Source of the DNA: Sphingomonas sp. J315
Lineage (GTDB): Bacteria; Pseudomonadota; Alphaproteobacteria; Sphingomonadales; Sphingomonadaceae
NCBI RefSeq assembly: GCF_024666595.1
Contig: NZ_CP088296.1
Location: 2,046,001 to 2,110,000 of the forward strand
Reading direction: 5' to 3'
DNA length: 64,000 nt
How positions within the stretch are numbered: position 1 is the stretch's first letter; the number at the start of each line of letters is the position of its first letter. A model generated the notes under the pieces. The model searched no databases and was not told the DNA's origin. It saw only the letters and a list, made by a program, of their open reading frames with translations. The position numbers were made by a program, and so were the translations under genes. Positions 10,049 through 64,000 of the stretch are shown piece after piece.

Positions 10049-10053
10049 TTGGG

Positions 10054-10752: not shown

Positions 10753-10770
10753 GGGGGTGGTGTAGCCATC

Positions 10771-10907: not shown

Positions 10908-10910
10908 TTC

Positions 10911-48105: not shown

Positions 48106-48570
48106 CTATACCGGCAGCGCCGTGGTCGACTTGATCTCCGACAGCGCGACCGTCGAGTTGATTTCCTGCACCCCGGGCAGGCGCGAGAGTTTTTCGAAGA
48201 AGAATTGCTCATAGGCCTCGATATCCGCCGCGACCACGCGCAGCATGAAATCGACCGTCCCCATCAACACATAGCATTCGAGCACTTCGGGCAGCTCGTG
48301 AATCGACGCGGCGAATTCGTCGAGATTGGCGCGGCCATGCGCGTTGAGTTTCACCAGAGCGAAGACCTGCGCGCGCAGCCCGATCTTGCGCCGGTCGAGC
48401 AGGGCGACGCGCCGCTTGATATAGCCCTCGCGCTCCAACCGGTCGATCCGCCGCCAGCAGGGGGAGGGCGACAGGCCGACCGCTTCGGCCACCGCCGCAG
48501 TCGAGAGCGAGGCATCCTCCTGGAGCACGCGGAGAATGCGGCGATCGTGCGAGTCGAGTGGTTCGGGCAT
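48106..48570 (-). CDS. Lrp/AsnC family transcriptional regulator
   Basis: A 154-residue feast/famine regulator. An N-terminal helix-turn-helix (STAAVAEAVGLSPSPCWRRI, residues 23-42) is followed by the RAM/ACT-like effector domain (VFALVKLNAHGRANLDEF, then GTVDFMLRVVAADIEAYEQF). It is divergent from an amino-acid dehydrogenase, which is likely its target and whose substrate (a branched-chain or aromatic amino acid) may be the effector. Confidence 0.93.
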   Translation of the reverse strand: MPEPLDSHDRRILRVLQEDASLSTAAVAEAVGLSPSPCWRRIDRLEREGYIKRRVALLDRRKIGLRAQVFALVKLNAHGRANLDEFAASIHELPEVLECYVLMGTVDFMLRVVAADIEAYEQFFFEKLSRLPGVQEINSTVALSEIKSTTALPV

Positions 48571-48698: not shown

Positions 48699-49757
48699 AT
48701 GCCCGAATTCTCCGCCCCCGTTCCGCCCGAAGAGGTGCTGCGCCTCGACGACCCGCAATCGGGCCTGTCGGGGGTGATCGTGATCCATTCGACCGCGCTC
48801 GGCCCGGCGGCGGGCGGGTGCCGGTTCCACCGCTACGCCAGCGATGCCGACGCAGTGACCGACGCGCTGCGGTTGGCGGAGGGGATGAGCTACAAGAATG
48901 CGCTGGCCGGGCTGCCGCTGGGCGGGGGCAAGGCGGTGGTGCGGATGCCCGACGGGCCGTTCGATCGCACCGCATTGTTCCGCGCATTCGGGCGTGCGGT
49001 CGCATCGCTGGGCGGGCGCTATGTGACCGCCGAGGATGTCGGGACGAGCGTCTCGGATATGCAGTGCGTCGCCGATAGCACGCGCCATGTCGCGGGCCTT
49101 CCAGCGCGCGTCGGAGCGGCGGGGGGCGATCCGTCGCCCTGGACCGCGCTCGGCGTGCTGCGGTCGATGGAGGTTGCAGTGCAGCGCCATCTGGGTGCGT
49201 CGCTGTCGGACGTGACCGTCGCGGTGCAGGGGCTGGGCCATGTCGGCTTCGCGCTGTGCGAACAACTCCACGACGCGGGCGCACGGCTGGTCGTCGCCGA
49301 ACCGCGTGCCGAAGTGGCGGCGGAGGCCGCGCGGCGCTTTGGCGCGAGCGTGGTGGCGTCGGAGGAACTGGTCTCCGCAAAGGCCGAGGTGTTCGCCCCC
49401 TGCGCGCTCGGCGGCGTGCTCGACGCGGTCGCAGTGGAGCGGATTCAGGCCGCAGTGGTATGCGGCGCGGCGAACAACCAGCTGGCAAGCCCGGCACAGG
49501 GCGATGCGCTGCTCGCGCGCGGCATCCTGTATGCGCCCGATTATGTCGTCAACGCGGGCGGGATCATCAACGTCGCCGCCGAACATCTCGGCTGGGGCGT
49601 CGATGAAGCCCGCGCGCGGGTCGAGGCGACTGGCGAGCGGCTGGCTGCGGTGCTCGACCATGCAGCCGCCGAACGGATCGCGCCGCATGCTGCCGCCGAT
49701 CGCCTCGCCCGCGCGGCCATCGCCCGCGCGCCTCGCCAGCCGGGGCTCGCCGCCTGA
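48699..49757 (+). CDS. Leu/Phe/Val-type amino acid dehydrogenase
   Basis: A 352-residue NAD+-dependent oxidative deaminase. The substrate domain shows GPAAGGCRFHRY near residue 35 and the catalytic-lysine block MSYKNALAGLPLGGGKAVV near 63-81, followed by EDVGTS. The Rossmann domain has VAVQGLGHVGFALCE near 173-187 and ends VVNAGGIINVAAE. The length and the GGGKAV motif fit leucine/valine/phenylalanine dehydrogenases rather than hexameric glutamate dehydrogenase. Substrate choice cannot be made from sequence. An ACT-like gene follows one base after the stop. Confidence 0.9.
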   Translation: MPEFSAPVPPEEVLRLDDPQSGLSGVIVIHSTALGPAAGGCRFHRYASDADAVTDALRLAEGMSYKNALAGLPLGGGKAVVRMPDGPFDRTALFRAFGRAVASLGGRYVTAEDVGTSVSDMQCVADSTRHVAGLPARVGAAGGDPSPWTALGVLRSMEVAVQRHLGASLSDVTVAVQGLGHVGFALCEQLHDAGARLVVAEPRAEVAAEAARRFGASVVASEELVSAKAEVFAPCALGGVLDAVAVERIQAAVVCGAANNQLASPAQGDALLARGILYAPDYVVNAGGIINVAAEHLGWGVDEARARVEATGERLAAVLDHAAAERIAPHAAADRLARAAIARAPRQPGLAA

Positions 49758-50143: not shown

Positions 50144-52129
50144 ATGCGCGTATGGACGCATAAGGTCAAACTGGCGGTAGCGGCGGTACTCGCGCTGACC
50201 GTCGCGATACCGGCTTCAACCCAGCAGGCGCCATTGGTGCCTAAACCGACCGAGGTTCCGGTCGGTGAGACCGCATCGCCCACCACCCCGGTCGGGCTGG
50301 ACCGGCTGACCAAGACCGATGTCGACACCTGGCTCGACGGATATATGCCCTATGCGCTCGCGCGCGGCGATATCGCCGGCGCGGTGGTCGTGGTGGTCAA
50401 GGACGGCGCGGTGCTGACGCAGCGCGGCTTTGGCTATTCCGATGTCGCCAAGCGCGCGCCGGTCGATCCCGACAAGACGCTGTTCCGCCCCGGTTCGACC
50501 TCGAAGCTGTTCACCTGGACCGCGGTGATGCAGCAGGTCGAGGCGGGCAAGATCGACCTTGACGCGGACATCAACAAGTACCTCGATTTCACGATTCCCG
50601 CCTATGACGGCAAGCCGATCACGATGCGCCAGGTGATGACGCATACGGCGGGGTTCGAGGAGATCATCAAGGGTCTGCTGGCGTTCGATATCCAGCTGAA
50701 ACCCCTGGGCGACATCCTGAAGGAGCGGATTCCCGAGCGCATCTACGCCCCCGGCACCACGCCGGCCTACTCCAACTATGCGACGGCGCTGGCCGGCTAC
50801 GTCGTCGAGCGCGTGTCGGGTCAGACGTTCGACGATTATGTCGAGCGCAACATCTTCGGACGCCTCGGCATGCAATATGCCAGCTTCCGTCAGCCGCTCC
50901 CCGCCCGGCTCAAGCCGTTCATGTCGCAGGGTTATGAATCGGGTGCGGGCAAGGCGCAGCGGTTCGAACTGATCGGCATGGCGCCCGCCGGCGCGATGTC
51001 GGCGAGCGGTGCGGACATGGGCAAGTTCATGCTGGCGTTCCTCAACGACGGCGGCCCGCTGCTCAAGCCCGCGACCACCGCAGAGATGCTCACCGCGCAG
51101 AATCTGAGCGTCAAGGGCGGCAACCAGATGGCGCTCGGCTTCTACGAAAACTGGATCAATGGTCGCCGTGCGCTCGGCCATGGCGGCGACACCGTCTATT
51201 TCCACACCGACCTGAAGATTTTCCCGGCGGAGAAGGTCGGCATCTATGTCTCGGTCAACAGCCAGGGCAAGGGCGGCGCGCCCGGCGCGGTGCGCGGCGC
51301 TTTGGTCGACGGCTTTGCCGATCGCTACCTCCCTGCCGCCGACGCAAAGCCGCCGGTCGAGCTGGCGACCGCGAAGGAACATGCCAAGATGCTCGTCGGC
51401 AGCTGGACCAACAGCCGTCGTGTCGCATCGAGCTTCGCATCCTTCGTCTATCTGCTCGGTGAGCAAAAGATCGGGCTCGACGAGGATGGTCGCCCGCTGG
51501 TTTCCGGCATCCCCTCGCTCGGCGGCGCGCCGCGCAAGTGGATCGAGGTCGAACCGTTCGTGTGGCAGGATGCCTATGGCAAGGAGCGCCTCGTCGCCGA
51601 AGTCCGCGACGGAAAGATCGTCCGCTGGACCTTCGGCATGGTCTCGCCCTTCATGGTGTGGGATCGTACTCCCTGGTATGCGACGGGCGCGTGGCTGATC
51701 CCGGCCCTGCTGTTCGCGCTCGCCGTCATCCTGATTACCGCACTCGGCTGGCCGATCGGCTGGATCGCGCGCAAGCGGTACGGGGCGCAGCTTGCACTGA
51801 CCGGCCCGTCGCGCACGGCCTTCCGTGCCGTGCGCGGGCTTGCCTGGCTGGTCGTGCTGGTGCTGGTCGGCTGGCTGGTCGTGGTCACCGGAATCGAGAA
51901 TTTCGAAGGCCATGGCAAGAATGACTGGCTGATCCTGACGCTGCAGGCGGTGGGCACGCTCGCCTATCTGGGCCTGCTCGCTGCCTCGGTGTGGAACGCC
52001 TGGCTTGCGTTCAAGGGGCGTCGCGGCTGGTTCTCCAAGCTCTGGTCGGTACTGCTGGTGCTCGGCGCCTTCGTCCTTCTGTGGGTGGCGTTGGTGTTCA
52101 AGCTGGTGAGTTTCGGCACCGGCTACTGA
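50144..52129 (+). CDS. serine hydrolase, beta-lactamase family, with C-terminal membrane helices
   Basis: A 661-residue exported protein. A signal peptide (AVAAVLALTVAIPAS) precedes a class C beta-lactamase/DD-peptidase domain with the nucleophile motif STSK (Ser118-Lys121), YSNYA near 206 and GHGGDT near 345. A beta-rich middle follows and four membrane helices end the chain (for example WLIPALLFALAVILITALGW near 517). Members hydrolyse D-Ala-containing peptides, esters or lactams. Here it stands before a TonB receptor and the D-Glu genes, which suggests a D-aminopeptidase or esterase role. Confidence 0.85.
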   Translation: MRVWTHKVKLAVAAVLALTVAIPASTQQAPLVPKPTEVPVGETASPTTPVGLDRLTKTDVDTWLDGYMPYALARGDIAGAVVVVVKDGAVLTQRGFGYSDVAKRAPVDPDKTLFRPGSTSKLFTWTAVMQQVEAGKIDLDADINKYLDFTIPAYDGKPITMRQVMTHTAGFEEIIKGLLAFDIQLKPLGDILKERIPERIYAPGTTPAYSNYATALAGYVVERVSGQTFDDYVERNIFGRLGMQYASFRQPLPARLKPFMSQGYESGAGKAQRFELIGMAPAGAMSASGADMGKFMLAFLNDGGPLLKPATTAEMLTAQNLSVKGGNQMALGFYENWINGRRALGHGGDTVYFHTDLKIFPAEKVGIYVSVNSQGKGGAPGAVRGALVDGFADRYLPAADAKPPVELATAKEHAKMLVGSWTNSRRVASSFASFVYLLGEQKIGLDEDGRPLVSGIPSLGGAPRKWIEVEPFVWQDAYGKERLVAEVRDGKIVRWTFGMVSPFMVWDRTPWYATGAWLIPALLFALAVILITALGWPIGWIARKRYGAQLALTGPSRTAFRAVRGLAWLVVLVLVGWLVVVTGIENFEGHGKNDWLILTLQAVGTLAYLGLLAASVWNAWLAFKGRRGWFSKLWSVLLVLGAFVLLWVALVFKLVSFGTGY

Positions 52130-52140
52130 TCGGCTCCGGC

Positions 52141-52173
52141 GATCCGGGCGCGGCACGCCGCCGCGCCCGGATC
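52141..52173 (+). terminator. strong hairpin after serine hydrolase gene
   Basis: A perfect 14-bp stem (GATCCGGGCGCGGC and its complement) with a five-base loop lies 12 bases after the stop. It lacks a clear T-run but is the strongest hairpin of the region and probably separates the hydrolase from the TonB-receptor operon. Confidence 0.6.
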
Positions 52174-52187
52174 GCGCCAAATCACGA

Positions 52188-52217
52188 TTGACAATTGTCC
52201 ATTTGAGACAACACTAT
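52188..52217 (+). promoter_or_regulatory. candidate sigma-70 promoter of the TonB receptor operon
   Basis: TTGACA at 52188-52193 is followed after 18 bases by CACTAT (52212-52217), and the receptor starts 64 bases further on. The -35 box overlaps the palindrome GACAATTGTC (52190-52199). A near copy, TTGACAATTCTC, lies at 50036-50047 in front of the serine hydrolase gene. This could be a shared promoter or operator of the locus. Confidence 0.4.
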
Positions 52218-52280
52218 CCCAATCAGAAATACCGCGCGCCGGATTGGACCCGTGCGACAGGCGGGCTCAGGGAGACTCAC

Positions 52281-54464
52281 ATGACACGGCATATCAACTC
52301 GACCCGTATCGTCCTGTCCCTCTCGACGGCTGCCGCCGCGCTGATGCTCCCGGCATCGGCGCTCGCACAGGATGACGGCACCGGCGTCACCGTCGATCGC
52401 GACGAGGTCGTCGTGACCGCGCAAAAGCGCAGCGAGCGCGTCCAGGACGTTCCGATCTCGATCACCGTGGTCAGTGGCGCGGCGATGCAGCAGAGTGGCG
52501 CGTCGCAGCTCTCCGACTATGCCGCGTCGATCCCCGGGCTTCAGGTCGACAATGCCGGCTCCCCCGGCCGCTCCACCCTGTCGCTGCGCGGCGTCGCACC
52601 GATCGGCCCCAGCGCCACGGTCGGTATGTACCTGGACGATGCCCCGATCGGATCGAGCGGCATCTACAACCGCTCACAGGTCTTCACGCTCGACCTGATG
52701 CCCTATGATATCGAGCGGCTGGAGGTGCTGCGCGGGCCGCAGGGGACACTGTACGGCGCCAGCTCGATCGGCGGGCTGCTCAAATATGTGACCGTCCAGC
52801 CGGATCTGAACAATCTCACTGTCCGTGGCGGCGCTGAAGTCTTTACCGTGGCGCATGGTGACGGAGTTGGCTGGGCGGGGAACGCCATGGTCAATGTGCC
52901 GCTCGTGCCCGATCAGCTCGCGGTCAGCGCCAGCTATGCGCGCCGCGAGACGCCGGGTTATGTCGACAACATCCAGACCGGTGAGGAGGACGTCAACGAC
53001 GCGGTCCAGCAGGGCGGCCGGGTGGCGTTGCTGTGGCGGCCGGATCCCGCGCTCACCATCAAGCTGAGCGGCGTGTGGCAGTCGGTCGACTCCGACAATG
53101 TCAGCATCGTCTACGAAGGCATGGGCAATACGCCGATCGCGCCGGGCAGGTCGTTCTTCAGCACCAACACCCAGCTGGCCGAACCCTTCACCAGCGACTT
53201 TCAATTCTACTCGGCCACGATCGGCTATGATCTGGGCTTTGCCGAGCTGAGCTCGACCACCTCCTACAGCAAGCTCGAGATTCTCGAGGTGACCGACGCG
53301 AGCCGCGTGTTCGGCGGTATCTTCGGCGGCTTCGCGCCCTATCCGGCGACGCTGGAACAGAAGAAATGGACCGAGGAGCTGCGCCTGACCTCAGCGCCGA
53401 GCACCAGCCTCGAATGGATGGTCGGCTTCTTCTACACCGATGAGGACAACACCCACAGCCAGGTGGTCCGCGCGCTCGACGCCAGCGGCACGCCGATCCC
53501 CGGCTTCGATCCGTTCGCGATCGTCGGCCTGCCCAACACGTACAAGGAATATGCCGTCTTCGGGAACGCGACCTGGAAGATCAGCGAGAAGTTCCATTTG
53601 ACCGGCGGACTGCGCTGGGCGCGCAACGACCAGACCTTCACCCAGTCGACCGCAATCCCGCTGCTCGGCCTCAACGCCAGCGGCGACGGCGAATCGTCGG
53701 AAGAGATCGTCACCTACAGCGTCAGCCCCCAGATCAATCTGAGCCGCAACTCGATGATCTATGCCCGCGTCGCCAGCGGCTATAAGCCGGGCGGGCCGAA
53801 CGTCGCGCTGCCGGGCTTCCCCGCCACCGTCGATGCCGAGAAAGTGACGAGCTATGAAGTCGGCGTGAAGGCCAGCTTCCTCGACCGTGCAGTCAGCCTC
53901 GATGCGGCCGTGTTCATGCTCGACTGGACCGACCTGCAGACCGCAGCCGCCTTTGCCGCCGGCATCAATGGATTGGTCAACGCCGGCACCGCGCGCAGTC
54001 AGGGCGTCGAGGCATCGCTGTCCATCACGCCGATCACGGGCCTGAATGTCGGCGCGAACTTTGCCTATACCGACGCCAAATGCACCGAGACGACGGCTGC
54101 CTGTACCGATGGCGACCAGTTGCCGAGCGTGCCGAAGATCGCGGCGGCGATGACTGCGGACTATAGCTTTGCGGTCGGCAGTTCGGCTGAGGCCCGGCTG
54201 GGCGGTTCGGTGCGCATCGTCGGGGATCGTATCTCTGCGGTCGAGAGTTCGGCGCTGGCGGTGCCGATCGACGGCTATGCTGCGCTCGACCTCAACGCAG
54301 CCGTCACCTTCAACGACAAATGGACATTGCGTGCCTATGCCCGCAACCTCACCGATTCCGAGGGGCGGATCACCAGCAACGTCGCAACCACCAATCCCGG
54401 CTTCCTGTCGACCGTGCCGCTGCAACCCCGCACGTTGGGCCTGGCCATCGACCTGTCCTTCTGA
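52281..54464 (+). CDS. TonB-dependent receptor
   Basis: A 727-residue outer-membrane receptor. A signal peptide (LSTAAAALMLPASALAQ) is followed by the TonB-box-like DEVVVTAQKRSERVQDVPIS (residues 39-58), the plug (about 60-170, with LRGVAPIGPSATVGMYLDD) and a 22-strand barrel ending in LGLAIDLSF with terminal aromatic. Sphingomonad receptors of this type take up varied substrates; the operon context points to peptides or amino-acid derivatives. It starts after GGGAGACTCAC. Confidence 0.92.
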   Translation: MTRHINSTRIVLSLSTAAAALMLPASALAQDDGTGVTVDRDEVVVTAQKRSERVQDVPISITVVSGAAMQQSGASQLSDYAASIPGLQVDNAGSPGRSTLSLRGVAPIGPSATVGMYLDDAPIGSSGIYNRSQVFTLDLMPYDIERLEVLRGPQGTLYGASSIGGLLKYVTVQPDLNNLTVRGGAEVFTVAHGDGVGWAGNAMVNVPLVPDQLAVSASYARRETPGYVDNIQTGEEDVNDAVQQGGRVALLWRPDPALTIKLSGVWQSVDSDNVSIVYEGMGNTPIAPGRSFFSTNTQLAEPFTSDFQFYSATIGYDLGFAELSSTTSYSKLEILEVTDASRVFGGIFGGFAPYPATLEQKKWTEELRLTSAPSTSLEWMVGFFYTDEDNTHSQVVRALDASGTPIPGFDPFAIVGLPNTYKEYAVFGNATWKISEKFHLTGGLRWARNDQTFTQSTAIPLLGLNASGDGESSEEIVTYSVSPQINLSRNSMIYARVASGYKPGGPNVALPGFPATVDAEKVTSYEVGVKASFLDRAVSLDAAVFMLDWTDLQTAAAFAAGINGLVNAGTARSQGVEASLSITPITGLNVGANFAYTDAKCTETTAACTDGDQLPSVPKIAAAMTADYSFAVGSSAEARLGGSVRIVGDRISAVESSALAVPIDGYAALDLNAAVTFNDKWTLRAYARNLTDSEGRITSNVATTNPGFLSTVPLQPRTLGLAIDLSF

Positions 54465-54475
54465 TCGCGCCGGGC

Positions 54476-55522
54476 ATGAACGCTCCGTTCAACGCGCCGT
54501 CGTCGGACGCGACGCTGCCTCAGCCCTATCTGCTCTTTCTGGGGGATACGGTCGAGCGCGGCTTTGCCAAGACCGCGCTGGGGTTGCGCGACTGGGCGGC
54601 GGACAAATGCGTGGGGGAGCTGCGGCTGACCGACGCGACCGTGTCGACCGGGCTCCCGCAAATGACGCCGGCTCAGGCGCGGGCACAGGGCGCGCGGGCG
54701 ATGGTGATCGGGGTCGCCAATCAGGGCGGGATCATCCCGCTCGCCTGGCGCGCGTCATTGGTCGAGGCGCTGGAGGCGGGACTCGATCTGATCGCGGGGA
54801 TGCATATGCGCCTTGCCGATCTGCCCGAGATCGCGGCCACGGCGCAGCGGCTGGGGCGGACGCTGCACGATGTGCGCGTGCCGCCCGCCGACATCCCGGT
54901 CGCGACCGGGCGGAAGCGTAGCGGCAAGCGCCTGCTGACCGTCGGCACCGATTGCGCCTTGGGCAAGAAATACACCGCACTGGCGCTCGCCCGCGCCTTT
55001 GCGACACGCGGCGTGCCGACCGATTTCCGCGCGACGGGGCAGACCGGGATCATGATCGCGGGCAGCGGCATCCCGATGGACGCGGTCGTCTCGGATTTCG
55101 AGGCGGGTGCGGCTGAGATCCTGTCGCCCGACGCCGCGCCCGATCATTGGGACGTGATCGAGGGGCAGGGGTCGCTGGCGCACCCCGCCTATGCCGCCGT
55201 GTCGCTCGGTCTGCTCCATGGCAGCCAGCCCGATGTGTTCGTGGTGTGCCATGAGCCGGGGCGCACTGCGATGCTTGGCACGGCAGGCTATGGCGTGGTC
55301 AGCGTCGAGGAGATAGCGAGCCTCGCCATCGCGCTCGGGCGCCGCACCAATCCCGCTATCCGTTGCGGCGGATATTCGTACAACACCGCTGCGCTTGACG
55401 CCGACGAGGCCGAGGCGCTGATGGCCGCCGAAAGCGCGCGGCTGGGCCTGCCCGTCGCCGATCCAATCCGCGGCGGTGCCGCATTCGACGCGCTGGTCGA
55501 CAATTGCCTGAAGGGCGCATGA
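54476..55522 (+). CDS. dgcN: D-glutamate N-acetyltransferase family protein (DUF1611, DgcN)
   Basis: A 348-residue member of DUF1611. The N-terminal half has PYLLFLGDTVERGFAKTALG near residue 17, the middle VIGVANQGGIIPLAW near 80, and the C-terminal half a P-loop-like GTDCALGKKYTALALARAF near 158 and HEPGRT near 262. The characterised member DgcN acetylates D-Glu as the first step of a catabolic pathway in which DgcA racemises N-acetyl-D-Glu. A dgcA-type gene lies at 62400-63389 in this locus, which supports the assignment. It begins 12 bases after the receptor and overlaps the transporter gene (ATGA). Confidence 0.85.
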   Translation: MNAPFNAPSSDATLPQPYLLFLGDTVERGFAKTALGLRDWAADKCVGELRLTDATVSTGLPQMTPAQARAQGARAMVIGVANQGGIIPLAWRASLVEALEAGLDLIAGMHMRLADLPEIAATAQRLGRTLHDVRVPPADIPVATGRKRSGKRLLTVGTDCALGKKYTALALARAFATRGVPTDFRATGQTGIMIAGSGIPMDAVVSDFEAGAAEILSPDAAPDHWDVIEGQGSLAHPAYAAVSLGLLHGSQPDVFVVCHEPGRTAMLGTAGYGVVSVEEIASLAIALGRRTNPAIRCGGYSYNTAALDADEAEALMAAESARLGLPVADPIRGGAAFDALVDNCLKGA

Positions 55523-56634
55523 CGATGACCCAACCGACGCTGTTCCAGCGCTTCCTGCTCCCCGGCCTCGCCTTCAAGGGGGTGGTGATCGGGGGCGGCT
55601 ATGCCACCGGGCGCGAGCTGGCTGAATTCTTCATCCCCAGTGGGCCGCAAGGCGGGTTGATGGCGATGATCCTCGCGATGCTGATCTGGAGCGCGGTGTG
55701 CGCCGCGACCTTCGCTTTCGCGCATCTGACGCGCAGCTATGACTATCGCAGCTTCTTCCAGAAACTGCTCGGCCCCGGCTGGATCGCGTTCGAGATCGTC
55801 TATGTCCTGCTCCTGGTGCTGATCCTCGCGGTGGTCGGGGCGGCGGCGGGGGAGATCGGGGCGAGCTTTGGCGCACCCGCGATCCTCGGCACGTTGCTCC
55901 TCACCGTGACAATCGCTGTGGTGACCGGCATGGGCACCGCATCGGTCGAGCGTCTGTTCAAATATGCTTCGACCCTGCTCTACATCGTCTATGCGCTGTT
56001 CCTGATCCTCGGCCTGTGGCTGTTCGGCGACCGCATCGGTGCGAACCTCGCCACGCCGACCCCGACGACGGGCTGGGTGATGGGGGGCATCGCCTATGCC
56101 GGCTATAACCTGATCGCCGCCGCCGCAGTGCTGCCGCTCACCGCGCATTTCACCAGCCGCCGCGATGCCGTGATCGCCGGATCGATCGCCGGGCCGCTGG
56201 CGATGCTGCCGGCGTTTGGTTTTTTCCTGTGCATGATCGCCTTCTACCCTGCGATCGGCGACGAAACCCTTCCGTCCGCTTTTCTGCTGGGACAGATGAA
56301 TATTCCGGTGTTCACGATCGCGTTCCAGGCGATGATCTTCGCCGCCTTGCTCGAAACCGGGGTCGGCATCATCCACGCGGTCAATGAGCGCGTGTCCGGC
56401 GTCTGGCAGACAAGGCGTGGCGTGCCGCTCGGCAGCGGGCCGCGCGCCGGCATCGCGCTCGCCTTGCTGCTTGGCTGCGTGTTCGTCGCCACCGCGATCG
56501 GCCTGATCGACCTGATCGGCAGTGGCTATCGCATGCTCGCCTTCGCGATGCTCGCCGTCTTCGTCCTTCCCGTGATGACCCTGGGCGTCGTGCGCATCCT
56601 GCGCGCGCGGCCCGAAGTGGAGACTGTTGCATGA
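55519..56634 (+). CDS. YkvI-like membrane transporter
   Basis: A 371-residue integral membrane protein with about ten helices and the APC-like opening LLPGLAFKGVVIGGGYATGREL (core GGGYATGREL). Other visible segments are IVYVLLLVLILAVVGAAAGE and GGIAYAGYNLIAAAAVLPL. The YkvI group is of unproven specificity but has the fold of amino-acid transporters. Its place between dgcN and a serine hydrolase suggests inner-membrane transport of D-Glu or small peptides. It overlaps both neighbours by four bases. Confidence 0.8.
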   Translation: MTMTQPTLFQRFLLPGLAFKGVVIGGGYATGRELAEFFIPSGPQGGLMAMILAMLIWSAVCAATFAFAHLTRSYDYRSFFQKLLGPGWIAFEIVYVLLLVLILAVVGAAAGEIGASFGAPAILGTLLLTVTIAVVTGMGTASVERLFKYASTLLYIVYALFLILGLWLFGDRIGANLATPTPTTGWVMGGIAYAGYNLIAAAAVLPLTAHFTSRRDAVIAGSIAGPLAMLPAFGFFLCMIAFYPAIGDETLPSAFLLGQMNIPVFTIAFQAMIFAALLETGVGIIHAVNERVSGVWQTRRGVPLGSGPRAGIALALLLGCVFVATAIGLIDLIGSGYRMLAFAMLAVFVLPVMTLGVVRILRARPEVETVA

Positions 56635-58214
56635 TCCGCGCCCTGATCGCGCTTCCCGCGCTGCTGCTCGCCACCGCGCTCCCCGCCGCCGCCGACCTGC
56701 CCAAGGGGTTCGCCGAGAAGGTCGAGACGCTCCGCGCGAAAAGCGGCGCGCCCGGCATCGCCATCGCGGTGGTGCACAAGGGCAAGGTCGAACTGGCGCA
56801 GGGCTGGGGCACGACCAAGCTCGGCGGCACGCAAAAGGTCGATGCCGACACGATTTTCCAGACCGGATCGACCGGCAAGGCAATGACCGCCGCCGCGCTC
56901 GCCATCCTCGTCGATCGCGGCAAGATCAAATGGGACGACCGCGTGATCGACCACATGCCCTGGTTCCGCATGGCCGATCCGTGGGTCACGCGCGAGATCA
57001 CGATCCGCGACCTGCTGGTCCATCGCAGCGGGCTGGGGCTCGGTGCGGGCGACCTGCTCTACGTCCCGCGCGGCAAGCTGTCGCGCAAGGAGACGGTGAA
57101 GCGCCTCGCCTATATCCAGCCCGCGCGCAGCTTCCGATCGGGCTATGCCTATGACAATATCCTCTATTCGGTCGCCGGGCAGCTGATCGAGGAAGTCAGC
57201 GGCAAGAGCTGGGAAGACTTCATGGCGCAGGACGTGTTCGCCGCGGGCGGGATGACCAGCGCGACGGCGAATTACGAAAGCCGCCTCGCCAACCCCAATC
57301 GCGCGCATCCGCACGCTCGGATCGGCGGCGCAGTGCGCGGCGATGGCCCCGTGTCGATGCTCGACGAGCGTGCGGCGGAGCTTGGCCGCGCGGCGCTCCC
57401 GGCGGGCGGCCTCGCGCTCAGTGCCAAGGATCTCGCGCGCTGGCTCCAGATCCAGTTGGCCAAGGGCGCGCTGCCCGGTGGCGGGCGCCTGTTCAGCGCG
57501 GCGCAGTCGGCGGAGATGTGGAAGGGGGTGACGCTCCAGCCGATCTCACCGATGCCCGGCCAGCTCGCGCCGCTGACCCCCAATTTCAGCTCTTACGCGC
57601 TCGGTTGGAGCGTCACCGACTATCGCGGTGTCCGCGTGATCGCGCATGGTGGCGCGGTATTCGGCGCGATCGCCTATGTCATCCTGCTCCCGGATCAGGA
57701 GGTCGGCATCGCCGGGGTGGTCAATGCCGAGGAGACGGCGCTGCTGCGCGGGGTGATCCATACATTGGTCGACCATTATCTGGGCGTGCCAGATCAGGAT
57801 TGGCCGACGCGCTTCAACAGCTTCATCGAACAACGCATCACCGGGGCGAAGGCGGCGCTGTCGACCACCCGCGCTGCACCCGCCAAGGTCGGGCCGTCGC
57901 TGGCGCTGGACCGCTATGTCGGCACCTATCGCGACGCCTGGTATGGCGATGTCGTGGTGGGCAAGGGCGCGGATGGCGGGCTGACCATCGACTTCACGAC
58001 TACCCCGGCGATGAAGGGGAAGCTGGTTCACTGGCAGTATGACAGCTTCGTCACCCGCTTCGACGACAAGTCGCTCGAGCCCGCCTATGTCACCTTCGCG
58101 CTCGACGCCGATGGCAAGGTCGCGCGCGTGTCGATGAAGGCCGAAAGCCCGATCGCCGACTTCAGCTACAATTACCAGGATCTGGACCTGCGTCCGGTGG
58201 GAGCGGGCAAGTGA
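56631..58214 (+). CDS. exported serine hydrolase, beta-lactamase/D-aminopeptidase family
   Basis: A 527-residue protein. Signal peptide LIALPALLLATALPAAA; beta-lactamase-type domain with the nucleophile motif STGK (Ser80-Lys83), AYDNILYSV near residue 180 and AHGGAVFGAIAYV near 335; then a DUF3471-like beta-barrel C-terminal domain. Such two-domain proteins include D-aminopeptidases, DD-peptidases and esterases. It is coupled to the transporter before and the dipeptidase after by four-base overlaps, indicating that the operon processes D-residue peptides. Confidence 0.87.
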   Translation: MIRALIALPALLLATALPAAADLPKGFAEKVETLRAKSGAPGIAIAVVHKGKVELAQGWGTTKLGGTQKVDADTIFQTGSTGKAMTAAALAILVDRGKIKWDDRVIDHMPWFRMADPWVTREITIRDLLVHRSGLGLGAGDLLYVPRGKLSRKETVKRLAYIQPARSFRSGYAYDNILYSVAGQLIEEVSGKSWEDFMAQDVFAAGGMTSATANYESRLANPNRAHPHARIGGAVRGDGPVSMLDERAAELGRAALPAGGLALSAKDLARWLQIQLAKGALPGGGRLFSAAQSAEMWKGVTLQPISPMPGQLAPLTPNFSSYALGWSVTDYRGVRVIAHGGAVFGAIAYVILLPDQEVGIAGVVNAEETALLRGVIHTLVDHYLGVPDQDWPTRFNSFIEQRITGAKAALSTTRAAPAKVGPSLALDRYVGTYRDAWYGDVVVGKGADGGLTIDFTTTPAMKGKLVHWQYDSFVTRFDDKSLEPAYVTFALDADGKVARVSMKAESPIADFSYNYQDLDLRPVGAGK

Positions 58215-59401
58215 AGCGTTTCTCGACGCTCGCCCTGCTACTGCTCGGCGCCTGCACCGCCGCGACGCCCGAGAAACCCGCCGAAGACACTGCGGCGCTG
58301 CACAAGCGCCTGCTGGTTCTCGACACCCATCTCGACACGCCGCTTCATTTCGGACGTCCCGGGTGGAGTTTTGGCGACAGGCACGACCCCGCGACAGACA
58401 TTGCGCAGGTCGATATGGGGCGGATGGAAGAAGGCGCGCTCGATGGCGGCTTCTTCGTCATCTACACCGATCAGGGGCCGCTGACGGCCAAGGGCTATGC
58501 CGATGCGCTCGCCTTTGCGCGCGGGCGATCCGACGCGATCGACACCACCCTCGCGCAGTTCCGTGACCGCATCCTGCCTGCGACCACCGCCGAAGAAGCG
58601 CGCCGCTACAACGCTGCGGGCAAGCTGATCGCGTTCAAGAGCATGGAAAACAGCTATGCGCTGGGCGAGGACCTGACGCTGCTGGCCGAGTTCCACAAGC
58701 GCGGCGTGCGCATGGCCGGACCGGTGCACGGCAAGAACAACCAGTTCGCCGACAGCTCGGGCGACAAGCCGCGCTGGAACGGGTTGAGCCCACTCGGTCG
58801 CCAATGGGTGGCGGAGATGAACCGGCTGGGCATGGTGATCGACGCCAGCCATTCCTCCGATGCGGCATTCGACCAGATGCTCGCGGCCTCGCGCGCGCCG
58901 ATCATCCTGTCGCATTCGAGCGGGCGGGCCGCCTATGACCACCCCCGCAACCTCGACGACACCCGCCTCCGCGCGCTGGCGGCAAAGGGCGGGGCGATCT
59001 GCATCAGCACGATCTTCCTGTCGGAGATCAACCTGGCCGGTGAGCGCGGCGCATTGTTCGCGCAATATGAAAAGATCGCGACCCTCACACCCGCGGAACA
59101 GGCGGAGCTGGTGCGCAAGTGGCGCGAACTCGACAAGACCCAGCCGCTGTGGGACGCCGATTTCGAGAAGTACATGGCGATGGTGCTGTACGTCGTGAAA
59201 GTCGCCGGACCCGACCATGTCTGCTTCAGCGGCGACTGGGACGGCGGCGGCGGGGTCAAGGGGTTCGAGGATATCTCGGCGCTGCCTTTGGTCACCGCGC
59301 GGCTCAAGGCGGCGGGCTATTCGGACGAGGATCTGGCGAAGATGTGGGGCGGGAATATCCTGCGCATCGTCGCGGAGGCACAGGCGAAGGCGGAGGGCTG
59401 A
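58211..59401 (+). CDS. membrane dipeptidase, M19 family, lipoprotein
   Basis: A 396-residue zinc dipeptidase. A lipobox (LALLLLGACTA, Cys near residue 15) precedes the (beta/alpha)8 domain. Metal-site motifs in order: DTHLDTPLHF near 37, AFKSMENSYALG near 139 (bridging Glu), IDASHSSDAAFD near 214, LSHSSGRAAYDHPRN near 235 and VCFSGDWDGG near 336. M19 enzymes accept dipeptides with a D-amino acid at the C-terminal position, unlike most dipeptidases. This fits the D-Glu context. It is the last gene of the operon. Confidence 0.92.
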   Translation: MKRFSTLALLLLGACTAATPEKPAEDTAALHKRLLVLDTHLDTPLHFGRPGWSFGDRHDPATDIAQVDMGRMEEGALDGGFFVIYTDQGPLTAKGYADALAFARGRSDAIDTTLAQFRDRILPATTAEEARRYNAAGKLIAFKSMENSYALGEDLTLLAEFHKRGVRMAGPVHGKNNQFADSSGDKPRWNGLSPLGRQWVAEMNRLGMVIDASHSSDAAFDQMLAASRAPIILSHSSGRAAYDHPRNLDDTRLRALAAKGGAICISTIFLSEINLAGERGALFAQYEKIATLTPAEQAELVRKWRELDKTQPLWDADFEKYMAMVLYVVKVAGPDHVCFSGDWDGGGGVKGFEDISALPLVTARLKAAGYSDEDLAKMWGGNILRIVAEAQAKAEG

Positions 59402-59417
59402 GGGGCAAACTCCGTTG

Positions 59418-59523
59418 GTCACCCCGGCCTTGTGCCGGGGTCCACTGCGCCGCACTTCCCGCGCTCAAGCTTCTTGCGTCGCGCCTCGCCTCTCGGTGGA
59501 CCCCGGCACAAGGCCGGGGTGAC
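59418..59523. repeat. palindromic repeat family A, copy 2
   Basis: A 106-bp bipartite element with the same border (GTCACCCCGG) and linker (GCGCTCAAGCTTCTTG-like) as copy 1 at 5333-5428. Here both terminal hairpins have the full CCCCGGCxxxxTGCCGGGG form. It follows the dipeptidase stop. Confidence 0.8.
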
Positions 59524-59616
59524 GAGGGAGGGTTGAGGGTCAATCAGCTGCCGGTTGGCTTCCGACCCCATTGCGGGCGCTGACGGCAGGGGGCGCAAAA
59601 CTGCATTCCCTGGACC

Positions 59617-59952
59617 ATGCTGTCCGCTGATGTCGAAACTACAATCCGCCGGATCATCGTTGCAGTTTCGACGGGCGACTATCGAAGCGCCTTGGCGGAA
59701 GTCAGTCGATCGCGCTGTTCGGCAGAAGACCTTTCACGCGCAATTTCCGAGCATGGACGAGCGCTTTCAGCGCCCCCGTTTGCTGATTGGGACGTCATAG
59801 CGGTCGGCAATGAGGTCGGGCAGGAATGGTCAGTCCGAGCGCCGCTGTGGAGCCAAAGTGAGGGTGGGCGGTCTGATTTGGAGCTTCGCCTGACAGTGAT
59901 GAATGTGGATGGCGAAACTTCAATCGAACTGGACGACATACTTGTCGCTTGA
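59617..59952 (+). CDS. hypothetical protein (DUF7668-like)
   Basis: A 111-residue soluble protein, with TTIRRIIVAVSTGDYRSALA near residue 8 and a beta-rich C-terminal half (LELRLTVMNVDGETSIELDDILVA, core LRLTVMNVDG). The arrangement resembles small immunity-like or DUF7668 proteins. It uses ordinary codons and has no visible partner. It is the only gene between the two converging D-amino-acid operons. Confidence 0.55.
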   Translation: MLSADVETTIRRIIVAVSTGDYRSALAEVSRSRCSAEDLSRAISEHGRALSAPPFADWDVIAVGNEVGQEWSVRAPLWSQSEGGRSDLELRLTVMNVDGETSIELDDILVA

Positions 59953-60008
59953 TGGCAGTTTCCCACTCACTAGCCGTCATCCGAACGGCACCGTCGCGGT
60001 GTGCGGCC

Positions 60009-60680
60009 CTACAACGCCGACTTCGACCGCCGCTGCCCCCCCGCTTCGACCACTTCCTGCCCCTGCAGGGTCATCAGCGATTCCATCAGCCGCTCCTCGG
60101 CGCTCGAACACACGCCCAGCACGGTCGCCTCGGCACAGCCCTCGGCGGCGATATAGGCGTGGCCCATGTTCGAATCGATGTAGATCGACTCCCCCTCGTG
60201 CAGCACCACGGGGTCGTAGAATTCGGTATGCACCTCGACCGCGCCCTGCAGGACGTAGATGAATTCCTCGCCCGAATGGCGGACCAGCTCGCCGAACTCC
60301 TCGACGGTGCGCGCGCGGATCCTGGTGACGATCGGGATCATCCGCTTCCGACGGAGTTCGGTATTCATGTAGAAATAGTCGTAATTCGCGGTCTCGACCC
60401 GCACCGCGCGGTCGAGCTTGCCGACGCTGCGGCGCGCGGTCACCGGCTGCTGCTGCGGATCGGCGGGCTCGCTGCTTTCGGCGAACAGCTCCGACATGCG
60501 CAGCCCCAGCTTCTGCGCGAGCTGCAGCAATTTGTCATAGCTCAGCGTCAGGCGGTTGTGCTCGATCTTCGACAGGGTCGATACGGGAATCCCGGTCCGC
60601 TCGCTCATCTGCTTGAGCGTCCAGCCCTCCTGACCGCGCAGGCGGCGCAGGAAACTGCCAAGAGTGGGGGCATCAGACAT
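60009..60680 (-). CDS. XRE-family regulator with cupin domain
   Basis: A 223-residue regulator. The N-terminal XRE helix-turn-helix has GWTLKQMSERTGIPVSTLSKIE near residues 19-40 (core SERTGIPVSTLSKIE), and the C-terminal cupin (about 130-205) has HSGEEFIYVLQGAVEVHTEF and GESIYIDSNMGHAYIAAEG. XRE-cupin proteins often sense small metabolites and control amino-acid or polyamine catabolism next to their gene. It is downstream of the D-aminoacylase gene by 100 bases, in the same direction, and is the probable regulator of the locus. Confidence 0.9.
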   Translation of the reverse strand: MSDAPTLGSFLRRLRGQEGWTLKQMSERTGIPVSTLSKIEHNRLTLSYDKLLQLAQKLGLRMSELFAESSEPADPQQQPVTARRSVGKLDRAVRVETANYDYFYMNTELRRKRMIPIVTRIRARTVEEFGELVRHSGEEFIYVLQGAVEVHTEFYDPVVLHEGESIYIDSNMGHAYIAAEGCAEATVLGVCSSAEERLMESLMTLQGQEVVEAGGQRRSKSAL

Positions 60681-60780
60681 AGAGCGCGATCACCTCAAAG
60701 TTTCCGATCAGGACAGTCCGTCCCGATCGGCACCCTTTGGTGATAGCAGCGTCTTGCCGCCAGACAATCCCGTTGCGGAC

Positions 60781-62403
60781 CTAAATCCCCGGGCACGGAT
60801 GGCGCAGCACGCGCCCTGCGCGCGCGCCGGTCGGCTGACCCTTGTCGAGCGCCAGCGCGCCGTTGACGATCACCGTGTCGATCCCCGTGGGCGGGGTGGT
60901 CGGCGCGTCGAACGTCGCACCGTCCTTGATCGTGTCGAGGTCGAACACCACCACATCTGCGCGCATGCCCGGACGCAGCAGTCCGCGGTCGGACAGGCCC
61001 AGCCGATGCGCGGGCCATCCGCTCATCTTGCGCACCGCGTCGGGCAGGGTCAGCACCTTCCGCGCCTTCACATATTCGGCGATGATGCGTGGGAAAGTGC
61101 CGTTGGCGCGCGGATGCGGGCGTCCCTGTTTCTCGGGATCGACGGTCGAATCCGTCGCGCCGGCATCGGTGCCGACGCTGACCCAGGGCTGCTTCATCGC
61201 CAGCGCGATGTCGGCCTCGTCCATCATGAAATAGAGCGCGGTGGCGCGTGCGGGCAGTGCGTCGAGCCAGATGTCCCACGCGGCGTCGGCGGGATCCTTG
61301 CCCAGCGCCTTGCCGATCTCCGCGAAACTCTTGCCGTGGAACCGGGCGTACTTCTCGTTCTGCGCATTGGCGAGGACGACGTTCGTCCACCCGCCCGAGG
61401 CATGGACCAGGTTCGACCAGTCGGGCTGCGACCCCGCCGCCAGCTCCTTCTTGATCTTCGAGCGCACTGCCGGGTCGCGCAGCGCGGCGTGCGCCGCCTC
61501 GCGCCCCTTGGCGAAGACATGGGTGGGGACGGTGACGTCGAGTCCCGTGCCGCCCGCGCGATAGGGATAGATGTTCGCGCCGACATCGACCCCGCGGCTG
61601 CGCGCAGCCTCGATCCGCGCGATCGCCTGCGGCATCAATTTGCCCCACAGTGGTGCATAGGCGGCCTTGATGTGGAATATCTCGACCTTCGCTCCGCTGC
61701 GCTCGCCGATGCTCACCGCCTCGTCGATCGCGGTCAGCAGCTTGTCGCTCTCGTCGCGCATATGGGTGGCGTAAAATCCGCCGCATTTGCCCGGGATCGC
61801 CGCCAGCCGGGCGAGGTCGCTTTCCGACTGGAAGGATGCGGGGTGATAGATCAGCGCCGTCGAGATGCCGAACACGCCCGCACGCATCGCAGTGCGGACT
61901 TCGGCCTCCATCGCTTTCAGCTGGTCCTCGGTCGGGGTGCCGGCGGCGTCGCCCATCACCTTCACCCGCGCCTGCACCGCGCCGTAATAGGTGCCGAAAT
62001 TGACCGCGATGCCCTGGCGCTCCAGCTGGTCGAAATAGCTGGTCAGTTCGCCTGCCGGGACCGCGGTGCCGCCCTCGCCCGCGATCAGCGTGGTCACGCC
62101 CATGCGCAATTTGTTGACCGCCGACCCGTCGTTGAGCAGCGCGCGCTGGCTGTGGTCGAGCATGTCGATGAACCCGGGCGCGACATAGCGGCCGCGCGCA
62201 TCGACCTCCTGCTTGCCGGTGCCGGTGACGGTGCCGATCGCGACGATCTTGCCGTCCTTGATCGCCACGTCCCCGCTGACCCAGGGATTGCCCGCCCCGT
62301 CGAGCACGCGCCCGCCCCGGATCACGATGTCGAACATTGGATCGGCCGGGGCGGTGGCCCCGATCAGCAAAGGCACGGCGAGCAGGGCGAGCGATCGGAT
62401 CAT
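60781..62403 (-). CDS. D-aminoacylase-like amidohydrolase
   Basis: A 540-residue exported amidohydrolase (signal peptide SLALLAVPLLIGATAPA) that should hydrolyse N-acyl-D-amino acids or related amides. The start of the barrel reads PGFIDMLDHS instead of the usual PGFID-x-H-x-H, and the Cys that helps bind zinc in Alcaligenes D-aminoacylase is a Glu here (AGEGG, near residue 110). The two other zinc histidines, YATHMRDE (His214) and IFHIKAAY (His244), are present with the same 30-residue spacing as His220/His250, as is the catalytic Asp in SVGTDAGA (413). It overlaps dgcA by four bases. Confidence 0.85.
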   Translation of the reverse strand: MIRSLALLAVPLLIGATAPADPMFDIVIRGGRVLDGAGNPWVSGDVAIKDGKIVAIGTVTGTGKQEVDARGRYVAPGFIDMLDHSQRALLNDGSAVNKLRMGVTTLIAGEGGTAVPAGELTSYFDQLERQGIAVNFGTYYGAVQARVKVMGDAAGTPTEDQLKAMEAEVRTAMRAGVFGISTALIYHPASFQSESDLARLAAIPGKCGGFYATHMRDESDKLLTAIDEAVSIGERSGAKVEIFHIKAAYAPLWGKLMPQAIARIEAARSRGVDVGANIYPYRAGGTGLDVTVPTHVFAKGREAAHAALRDPAVRSKIKKELAAGSQPDWSNLVHASGGWTNVVLANAQNEKYARFHGKSFAEIGKALGKDPADAAWDIWLDALPARATALYFMMDEADIALAMKQPWVSVGTDAGATDSTVDPEKQGRPHPRANGTFPRIIAEYVKARKVLTLPDAVRKMSGWPAHRLGLSDRGLLRPGMRADVVVFDLDTIKDGATFDAPTTPPTGIDTVIVNGALALDKGQPTGARAGRVLRHPCPGI

Positions 62404-63389
62404 GTTTTGGGTCCCCAGACACTGTCGTCACAACTGACTTTGCCGTCGCGATAGACGATCGACGGGGTGCGATCCTGCTTCAGGAACGTCGGGCCGTCGA
62501 GATCGACGATGTTGCAGCGCTGCGCGAGAATGAAGGCCGGGGCCATCGACAGGCTGGTGCCGACCATGTTGCCGACCATCACGCCCAGCCCCAGCTCCTC
62601 GGCCAGATCGGCGATCCTCAGCGCCTCGGTCAGCCCGCCGCATTTGTCGAGCTTGATGTTGATCACGTCAAACCTGCCGCGCGCGCTCGCGACATCGGCG
62701 AGCGTCAGGATGCTCTCGTCGCCCGCGAGCGGGATCGGGGAGGTATAGCCGTCCAGGTCCGCCTCACGCCCGCGCTTGAGCGGCTGTTCGAGCAGGTCGA
62801 CATTCGCCTCCACCAGCACCGCGACCAATGCGTCGAGCCGGTCGATCGTATAGCCCTGATTGGCGTCGACGCCGAGCCACACATCGGGCCGCGCCGCGCG
62901 GATCGCGCGCACGCGGGCGGCGTCGAGATCGTCGTCGCCGGTCAGCTTGACCTTGATCGCGCGCGCATCGGCCCAGCCGCGCGCTGCCGCTGCCATGGCT
63001 TCGGGGTCATCCGCGCCAAGCGTGAAGGTGGTGACCACCGGATGCGGTGCGTCGATCCCGGCGACTTGCCACACCGGCACGCCCGCGCGGTCGGCCTCCA
63101 GCTCCCACAATGCCGCGTCGACCGCGTTGCGCGCACCGCCCGCCGGCATCAGCTCGCGCAGCGCCAGCCGGTTGATCCCGGCCTCGATCCCCGGCCGCGC
63201 GGTCTCGATCGCCGCGAGCATGTGATCGACGTCATCGCCCAGATAATAGACCCCCGCCGCCTCGCCGCGACCCCGCGCGCCGTCATCCTCCAGCGTGACG
63301 ACGACGATGTCCGACGTCTCGAACACATGGCCCGAAATGCGGAACGGGGCGTTGAGCGGCAGGCTCTCGCGCGCGACGGTAAGCTTCAT
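62400..63389 (-). CDS. dgcA: N-acetyl-D-glutamate racemase family protein (DgcA), enolase superfamily
   Basis: A 329-residue member of the mandelate-racemase/muconate-lactonising group related to dipeptide epimerases. The KxK catalytic base is Lys146/Lys148 (AIKVKLTG). Metal ligands are Asp175 (GVDANQGY), Glu201 (LLEQPL) and Asp224 (AGDES), and the second catalytic lysine is in NIKLDKCGG (246-249). The DgcA group turns N-acetyl-D-Glu into N-acetyl-L-Glu after DgcN acetylates D-Glu. An Ala-Glu epimerase is the alternative; dgcN in the same locus favours DgcA. GAGGGGAC precedes the start. Confidence 0.88.
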   Translation of the reverse strand: MKLTVARESLPLNAPFRISGHVFETSDIVVVTLEDDGARGRGEAAGVYYLGDDVDHMLAAIETARPGIEAGINRLALRELMPAGGARNAVDAALWELEADRAGVPVWQVAGIDAPHPVVTTFTLGADDPEAMAAAARGWADARAIKVKLTGDDDLDAARVRAIRAARPDVWLGVDANQGYTIDRLDALVAVLVEANVDLLEQPLKRGREADLDGYTSPIPLAGDESILTLADVASARGRFDVINIKLDKCGGLTEALRIADLAEELGLGVMVGNMVGTSLSMAPAFILAQRCNIVDLDGPTFLKQDRTPSIVYRDGKVSCDDSVWGPKT

Positions 63390-63398
63390 GGAGTCCCC

Positions 63399-64000
63399 TC
63401 AATCCTCGACATAGACATATTGGTTCTGCTGCCCGTCATTGATGGTCAGCGTGCGCTTGCCGTCCTTGACCCCGACCAGCGCGTCGACGCCGATATTGCC
63501 CGGCCCGACCGAGATGATCGAGATGGTGCCATCGGCATTCTTGCGTGTCGCGATCGGTCCCTCGACGAACCCGGCCTTGATCCACTTCGCGCCATTCTTC
63601 TCGCTGATCGCTATCTGGCCCACCGCCGGGTCGGAATAATGGCCTGCAAGGTTGCCGAGCACCGCCGGATCGCCCGGATAGGTCAGCCGCCCGCGCCGCG
63701 CCGCCGCGCCCGCCTTGATCCGCGCCGCCGCTGCCGCGACATCGCGCTCCGCCTCAGGCTGGCCGTCATACAGGATTTCGAGCAGGCGGCGCAGCGTCGG
63801 GGCGAGCAGTGCCGCGCCCGGATCGCTGTTGGTCAGGATCACCATGCCGACCCCGCTCTCGGGCAGCGCGTACCAGTTGCTGTGATAGCCGAGCAACGTG
63901 CCGCCATGGGTGACGACGTTGACGCCCTTCGCATTGGTCTGGAACAGGCCCATGCCGTACCAGCTGTCGGGGCCGACCTGGACGCCCTTCTTGCGCCGCT
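63399..64000 (-). CDS. serine hydrolase, beta-lactamase family, partial (3' part only)
   Basis: The last ~200 codons of a gene that begins beyond the right edge. It has the conserved late motif VVTHGGTLLGYHSNWY (the H-G-G segment that follows the SxxK domain) and a DUF3471-like C-terminal beta domain (GNLAGHYSDPAVGQIAISEK, core LAGHYSDP). It is the third beta-lactamase-family hydrolase of the locus and stands nine bases ahead of dgcA, probably as the first visible gene of that operon. Confidence 0.82.
   Translation of the reverse strand, partial: RRKKGVQVGPDSWYGMGLFQTNAKGVNVVTHGGTLLGYHSNWYALPESGVGMVILTNSDPGAALLAPTLRRLLEILYDGQPEAERDVAAAAARIKAGAAARRGRLTYPGDPAVLGNLAGHYSDPAVGQIAISEKNGAKWIKAGFVEGPIATRKNADGTISIISVGPGNIGVDALVGVKDGKRTLTINDGQQNQYVYVED

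Follow-up and report, generated by a model that had tools for sequence, protein, structure and literature searches.

We analysed a window of 64,000 nucleotides (bases 2046001-2110000 of the 3.93-Mb single-contig genome of Sphingomonas sp. J315) that contains two operons encoding a TonB-dependent receptor, exported hydrolases, a transporter and homologues of the D-glutamate enzymes DgcN and DgcA. Genes on the plus and minus strands were assigned from open reading frames (ORFs) and matches to Pfam and NCBIfam profiles (Table 1). All the genes named by a first-pass annotation of this DNA (receptor, DgcN, transporter, serine hydrolases, M19 dipeptidase, DgcA, an enzyme of the D-aminoacylase kind and an XRE-cupin regulator) are present, and the ORF strands confirm that the two operons converge, with DgcN1 on the plus strand and DgcA on the minus strand. 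The chain of 4-bp overlaps that had been described for the plus operon holds at the DgcN1/T1, T1/SH2 and SH2/M19a junctions but not between the receptor and DgcN1, which are separated by an 11-bp gap; the listed DgcN1 ORF opens at 54320, i.e. within the receptor gene, and the gene start was taken as 54476. DgcA and the amidohydrolase gene overlap by 4 bp on the minus strand. We interpret the whole, with moderate confidence, as a locus for the utilisation of D-peptides, its cytoplasmic core being formed by a sister branch of DgcN-DgcA that is re-targeted to neutral, probably hydrophobic or aromatic, D-residues. The D-glutamate label is most likely wrong.

Table 1. Features of the locus and its surroundings. 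Plain positions are those of the window; L006 and L007 positions are marked as such.
Feature	Position	Strand	Evidence or remark
Lrp/AsnC regulator (loose associate)	48106..48528	-	PF01037 80 bits
Glu/Leu/Phe/Val dehydrogenase family protein (loose associate)	48699..49757	+	PF02812 + PF00208
SH1, serine hydrolase (beta-lactamase family), exported	50144..52129	+	PF00144 198.9 bits
TonB-dependent receptor TBDR1	52188..54464 (start 52188 or 52281)	+	PF00593 + PF07715
DgcN1, DUF1611 protein, non-canonical branch	54476..55522	+	PF07755 226.8 bits
T1, YkvI-like transporter, LeuT/APC-type fold	55519..56634	+	predicted structure + Foldseek
SH2, serine hydrolase with DUF3471, exported	56631..58214	+	PF00144 203 bits, PF11954 87.3 bits
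M19a, membrane dipeptidase family	58211..59401	+	PF01244 294.8 bits
XRE-cupin regulator	60009..60680	-	HTH + Cupin_2
Exported amidohydrolase, N-acyl-D-amino-acid deacylase kind	60781..62403	-	PF07969 75.9 bits
DgcA, window type	62400..63389	-	catalytic K148/K246 + metal ligands kept
SH4, C-terminal part (gene cut by window edge)	63399..64000	-	serine hydrolase
DgcN2	L006:7926-8987	-	second DgcN, outside window
M19b	L006:8990-10123	-	second M19 dipeptidase, outside window
TonB receptor, divergent	L006:10391-13207	+	beyond minus operon, outside window
Frameshift sites	L006:4399-7929; L007:9108-10123, 10002-11119, 4968-6990; L006:14363-16545

The window, and with it the first-pass annotation, covers part of a twin locus. 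Past its edge (window position = L006 position + 59000) the minus operon extends through the remainder of SH4 to SH3, DgcN2 and M19b (L006:4399-10123, minus strand). A single ORF, L006:4399-7929, contains both SH4 and SH3, fused by an apparent frameshift, whereas these two serine hydrolases are separate ORFs in Sphingomonas sp. R647. This strain is the nearest named relative by this locus (DgcA 89% identical) and repeats the twin arrangement within the limits of its available DNA (L087). The genome of J315 also carries a third DgcN gene and a second DgcA gene, both frameshifted, at ~G000:C1:3306100-3308100, in a third locus (L007) with DgcN3, DgcA2, a second D-aminoacylase-like gene, M19c, a POT symporter gene (L007:903-2066), Lrp genes and TonB receptor genes. 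Genes split or fused by apparent frameshifts include SH3, DgcN3, DgcA2, a DPPIV-type peptidase gene and a chondroitinase-B-like gene, and the frameshifts look like indel errors of the assembly. M19b, which has no HxD motif close to the N-terminus, is perhaps a non-classical or mononuclear member of its family.

The first-pass annotation had taken DgcN and DgcA for a D-glutamate route, yet both proteins score below the corresponding NCBIfam equivalog cut-offs. DgcN1 reaches 444.1 bits against NF041892 (cut-off 480; 444.6 bits for DgcN1 and 441.2 for DgcN2 in the search of the whole genome) and DgcA 374.9 bits against NF042940 (cut-off 400). When DgcA copies from the genus were scanned with the latter model, 4 of 4 canonical copies passed (426.6-446.3 bits) and none of 6 copies of the window type did (342.9-374.1 bits). 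One branch separates the window type from the canonical type in the DgcA tree (Shimodaira-Hasegawa-like approximate likelihood ratio test, SH-aLRT, 100), as does one in the DgcN tree (SH-aLRT 99). Both trees were built on subsets, with 66 DgcA rows out of 129 (named loci being thinned to every fourth) and 65 DgcN rows out of 117. Class-wide, across 142 genomes of which 46 had a DgcA match at E <= 1e-80, scores were bimodal: full-length window-type proteins lie at 528-596 bits and, apart from J315 itself and one copy in G073, all matches stay at or below 341 bits. A canonical DgcN-DgcA pair was looked for in the J315 genome and not found; its DgcN3 and DgcA2 both lie closer to the window type than to the canonical one. 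The P-loop of DgcN1 reads GTDCALGKKYT, and the nearest solved structure by sequence is 7xrj. The DgcN score alone is an imperfect marker of type, because L049, L057 and L086, which have window-type DgcA, hold DgcN proteins of at least 480 bits; these loci, among the more divergent window-type DgcA copies, are possibly an intermediate branch.

The two types of DgcA differ at residues of the capping loops, which were counted in a frame-checked alignment of 103 window-type rows (101 distinct, window/L006 and L056/L149 being duplicates) and 26 canonical genus copies; the broken DgcA of L007 was left out, as were L059 and L060 (partial DgcN, no DgcA). Catalytic K148 and K246 and metal ligands D175, E201 and D224, roles that we take over from the enolase superfamily, are kept in all 103 window-type rows. 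Positions 20, 23 and 49, all three basic in 26/26 canonical copies, are basic in none of the window-type rows, where G (99), F (96) and Y (97), respectively, predominate, with one gap at each position. The window DgcA itself has G20, F23 and Y49 in place of Arg/Lys, and the N-terminal piece of the broken L007 copy, PFRIAGYEFD, gives G at position 20. Typical capping loops read PFRI(S/A)RGVKT and PYPRYGE in canonical genus DgcA, and PFRISG(H/Y)VF and GVYYLGDD in the window type. G20 and F23 align to Arg24 and Arg27 of 1jpd, the L-Ala-D/L-Glu epimerase of E. coli, in which Arg24 presumably binds the Glu side chain; the literature matches listed contained nothing useful on the role of this Arg in dipeptide epimerases. 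Among solved structures, an Arg in the 20s loop is present in 1jpd, 1jpm, 3iji (shifted by three positions; co-crystallised with L-Ala-D-Glu), 4gfi and 3r0k (unknown specificity), and absent from 3jva, 3q45 (crystallised with D-Ala-L-Val) and 2p88 (N-succinyl Arg/Lys racemase), while 3s5s and 3u9i (unknown function) were not informative. In the class-wide sample R20 is found in 44/45 canonical-range copies, with a gap in the remaining one, and loss of R20 is therefore confined to the window-type branch in that sample. In DgcN, position 263 (numbered on the trimmed window sequence) is Arg in 26/26 canonical proteins and in 7xrj; window-type proteins have Leu in 83/91 and Arg in 0/91.

The gene neighbourhood separates the two types as well. 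The genus search covered 61 genomes (J315 included), 31 of them with DgcN; loci from all listed places were examined, and those with DgcA comprise 26 canonical and 19 window-type loci (again J315 included). A second set of 80 named loci, one genome per species, was drawn by window-type DgcA alignment from at least 558 confirmed relatives. Since the profiles used for neighbour counts were built from genus clusters, all such counts are lower bounds, and those for TonB-dependent receptors, M19, Lrp and LysR refer to those subfamilies only; flanks of 9 kb on either side were available for 58 of the 82 named DgcA rows. Named loci come from 77 Pseudomonadota (including Sphingomonas, Sphingopyxis, Sphingobium, Novosphingobium, Massilia, Duganella, Luteimonas, Lysobacter, Stenotrophomonas, Caulobacter and others) and three metagenome-assembled genomes of Verrucomicrobiota. 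Their available flanks hold DgcN in 66 of 80 loci, T1 in 57, POT in 46, TBDR1 in 44, the XRE-cupin regulator in 64, some serine hydrolase in 78 and M19 of type a or b in 41. The profiles for the SDF glutamate/dicarboxylate symporter, LysR and S13 carboxypeptidase matched in 0 of these 80 loci and in 0 of the 19 window-type genus loci, against 22/26, 22/26 and 18/26 canonical genus loci, respectively (SDF, Fisher p 4.3e-09 with kinship ignored; same for LysR). Conversely, POT accompanies 10/19 window-type and 0/26 canonical genus loci, T1 13/19 and 1/26, and the XRE-cupin gene is found in 14/19 window-type loci. An outright absence of glutamate symporters from the organism was considered and rejected: J315 has four SDF genes, one of them in the window at ~1578-2765, about 50 kb from the locus.

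In a common gene order, the XRE-cupin gene is divergent from SH-DgcA-POT-(M19b)-TBDR1-DgcN-T1-SH2-(M19a). A second layout, seen mainly in Sphingopyxis, places DgcN-T1-alpha/beta hydrolase-D-aminoacylase-SH-DgcA in a single run (L099, up to the end of its contig, L102, L105, L106, L109, L115, L116, L124 and L127) and possibly serves a different substrate class. The arrangement seen in the window exceeds chance, as it recurs across related genomes. A comparison of neighbourhoods had been proposed along with the initial annotation, and the receptor, YkvI-like and M19 genes do recur with DgcN and DgcA. The locus is more complete and far more conserved than could be seen from the window, and the idea that it serves to take up and digest D-peptides is supported: it has a receptor of its own, exported hydrolases, a transporter of the inner membrane and DgcN/DgcA in the cytoplasm, all within a conserved neighbourhood.

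These findings bear directly on the possibility that the locus encodes the ordinary D-glutamate pathway, in which DgcN acetylates D-Glu and DgcA racemises N-acetyl-D-Glu, tied to the scavenging of peptidoglycan peptides. The same two protein families are involved with their catalytic residues kept, M19 and beta-lactamase-family enzymes suit D-peptides, and Arg206 could in principle substitute for the lost loop residues. We nevertheless consider this quite unlikely, given the scores below the equivalog cut-offs, the three missing basic residues, the failure to find a glutamate/dicarboxylate symporter near the window-type loci examined, and a different coupling of genes. Neutral residues are indicated instead, because the loop cations are lost, no glutamate symporter lies at the locus and the replacements are hydrophobic.

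The coupling of genes is informative on how the two enzymes may be used. DgcN is directly followed by DgcA in 26/26 canonical loci but in only 1/72 named and 1/19 genus cases for the window type. Window-type DgcA is instead followed by POT in 45/82 named and 10/18 genus copies, and window-type DgcN by T1 in 46/72 and 12/19. This order suggests two cytoplasmic branches, one for dipeptides (POT, DgcA) and one for free D-amino acids (T1, DgcN, DgcA). The same pairings could also mean that DgcA is a plain epimerase of neutral L-X-D-Y dipeptides delivered by POT and that DgcN acts separately on free D-amino acids imported by T1, with no joint pathway. Several of the closest solved folds are indeed dipeptide epimerases, the DxD motif (D296, D298) is kept in 103/103 window-type rows, and 14 of the 80 named loci, some on short contigs, have no DgcN in the available flank. 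The DxD motif, which was tried as a test of dipeptide versus N-acyl amino acid substrates, had to be rejected as non-discriminating because 26/26 canonical DgcA copies keep it too. In addition, DgcN and DgcA occur together in 66/80 named loci and are co-directional in 64 of these 66, and an N-acyl-D-amino acid without a racemase would be a dead end. We therefore regard fully separate roles as rather unlikely and favour a joint pathway. Linkage of DgcA to DgcN implies N-acyl amino acids as substrates.

We infer the substrate, every catalytic step and the direction of flow in the following scheme. Peptides rich in D-residues would enter through the TonB receptor, a role suggested by its family, and would be trimmed in the periplasm by exported serine hydrolases, M19 dipeptidases and the D-aminoacylase-like enzyme, as their families and N-terminal signals suggest. 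Inspected by eye, SH1, SH2, SH3, SH4, M19a, M19b and the D-aminoacylase-like enzyme have signal-like N-termini, with a lipoprotein-like start (LLGAC) in M19a, which has the HLD metal motif, and a twin-arginine-like RRQAIGG in M19b; no export signal is visible in DgcN or DgcA. SxxK, YxN and HGG motifs are present in all four serine hydrolases (STSK, YSN and HGG in SH1, which by eye has C-terminal membrane helices; STGK, YDN and HGG in SH2; SNTK, by eye, in SH4). Dipeptides could cross the inner membrane through a POT symporter, encoded near DgcA in more than half of the relatives and elsewhere in the J315 genome, while free D-amino acids would be imported by the LeuT-fold transporter T1. T1, a polytopic protein, has no family match in Pfam or NCBIfam. 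Its predicted structure (predicted local distance difference test score, pLDDT, 85.6) falls in the LeuT/APC fold, which amino-acid transporters share with others. It gave 64 Foldseek matches at E <= 0.001 of modest score, led by AdiC (5j4i; E 3.2e-05, TMq 0.65) and followed by MhsT, LAT1 and LeuT; the list also contains Nramp and NKCC1 (metal, chloride) and choline transporters, and an amino acid is the putative substrate. In the cytoplasm, DgcN would N-acylate the D-amino acid, after which DgcA would convert the product into its N-acyl-L counterpart; imported dipeptides may likewise have their D-residue inverted by this DgcA. The final step would fall to a housekeeping M20-type deacylase or peptidase, and any of the M20-family enzymes of the genome (13 matches, 10 above cut-off) could act as the deacylase. 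The exported amidohydrolase (216.1 bits against NF006560/PRK09061, below the cut-off of 340) had been put forward for this last deacetylation. It is a poor candidate, because the compound awaiting deacylation is an N-acyl-L-amino acid in the cytoplasm whereas the enzyme has a signal-peptide-like N-terminus; D-aminoacylase relatives act on N-acyl-D-amino acids.

The exported hydrolases raise another explanation, i.e. that the locus serves detoxification or resistance by destroying nonribosomal peptides that contain D-residues, with nutrition being secondary. The twin locus has four exported hydrolases of the beta-lactamase family, and its TonB receptor is distantly like siderophore receptors (158.6 bits, cut-off 223.5). 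We hold this explanation to be very unlikely, as cytoplasmic inversion enzymes and importers indicate use of the products, and the neighbouring genes that were scanned, which were not all of them, included none recognisable as a biosynthetic or immunity gene.

Several observations weigh against a D-peptide locus re-targeted to neutral residues. Arg206 was gained in 98/103 window-type rows, where 25/26 canonical copies have Ala, and could bind a carboxylate; 3jva has Arg there as well. Position 23 is non-basic in 3/45 and position 49 in 2/45 of the class-wide canonical-range copies, so that only position 20 distinguishes the types without exception among readable copies of that sample. The residue differences in DgcN are only suggestive. 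As the 80 named loci were chosen by likeness to window-type DgcA, their residues are no independent sample. Canonical loci have some TonB receptor in 16/26 and some serine hydrolase in 11/26 cases, and therefore neither gene alone marks the type. The window locus itself has no POT symporter gene. A Leu/Phe/Trp-type dehydrogenase and an Lrp regulator beside the plus operon are a weak clue to the substrate, the dehydrogenase being found in only 9/98 loci. Finally, we found no assay of any enzyme of this branch.

The DgcN-DgcA D-glutamate pathway (EC 2.3.1.312 and 5.1.1.25) was reportedly described by Yu et al. in the ISME Journal in 2023. Window-type and canonical systems have in common homologous enzymes with P-loop and enolase-type catalytic residues kept, and a D-aminoacylase-like gene, present in 20/26 canonical loci. 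The window type differs in falling below both cut-offs, lacking basic residues 20/23/49, having neither the SDF symporter nor a LysR of the canonical kind, keeping DgcN and DgcA apart, and adding the TBDR1, POT, T1 and SH2 types. With the L-Ala-D/L-Glu epimerase, window DgcA shares the enolase-superfamily fold and DxD motif; it lacks the 20s-loop Arg of the Glu-type dipeptide epimerases (1jpd, 1jpm) and, unlike these and other dipeptide epimerases (3jva, 3q45), is linked to DgcN. Another parallel is the N-succinylamino acid racemase (NSAR) pathway, which N-acylates with a GNAT acyltransferase, racemises with an enolase-superfamily enzyme and deacylates, and which serves hydrophobic amino acids. 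Our scheme follows the same logic, with the differences that the acyltransferase is a DUF1611 protein rather than GNAT and that the racemase branch is more distant (N-acylamino acid racemases match window DgcA at E near 1e-16 to 1e-12). No NSAR succinyltransferase or desuccinylase gene was recognised among the neighbouring genes scanned, a set that did not include every one.

In the parts available, PMC12363236 lists the 2023 pathway paper of Yu et al. among its references, PMC10845958 and PMC11747546 treat the D-glutamate pathway as established, and PMC8142540 reviews N-succinylamino acid racemases and dipeptide epimerases; those same parts of the four articles make no mention of a DgcN-DgcA branch of other specificity. 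Nor was a locus of this kind described in titles or abstract openings of the open-access literature among the matches listed. We tentatively raise the broader possibility of a widespread, so far undescribed system for using D-peptides, in which neutral or aromatic D-residues are inverted after entry by either of two cytoplasmic branches: POT would pass dipeptides to DgcA, and T1 would pass free D-amino acids to DgcN and then DgcA. Such a system would add another N-acylation/racemisation route to NSAR and canonical DgcN-DgcA; it would probably feed on nonribosomal peptides and is likely hidden in databases under D-glutamate names. If this is true, proteins likely named D-glutamate N-acetyltransferase or N-acetyl-D-Glu racemase do something else, and metagenomic counts of dgcN mix two functions. 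The locus would also open a genetic approach to the recycling, by bacteria of soil and water, of D-residues from nonribosomal and other D-peptides, and would offer naturally occurring racemases of neutral N-acyl amino acids with possible biotechnological use.

Two loosely associated genes, for the Lrp regulator and the dehydrogenase, lie beside the plus operon. The nearest NCBIfam model to the dehydrogenase is the tryptophan dehydrogenase ScyB (290.8 bits, below the cut-off of 600), with at most 79.6 bits against glutamate dehydrogenase models. Such dehydrogenase genes occur in 4/18 genus window-type, 5/80 named and 0/26 canonical loci, and Lrp-type genes in 8/18, 9/80 and 0/26, respectively. 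The gap between the converging operons contains a long inverted repeat (~28 bases per arm, by eye) at 59418-59530 of the window and a gene for a small DUF7668 protein at 59617-59952. Past the divergent TonB receptor gene of the minus side, L006:13315-19993 encodes a Crp-type regulator, chondroitinase-B-like and heparinase/alginate-lyase-type proteins and an MFS transporter, which suggests an adjoining polysaccharide utilisation locus.

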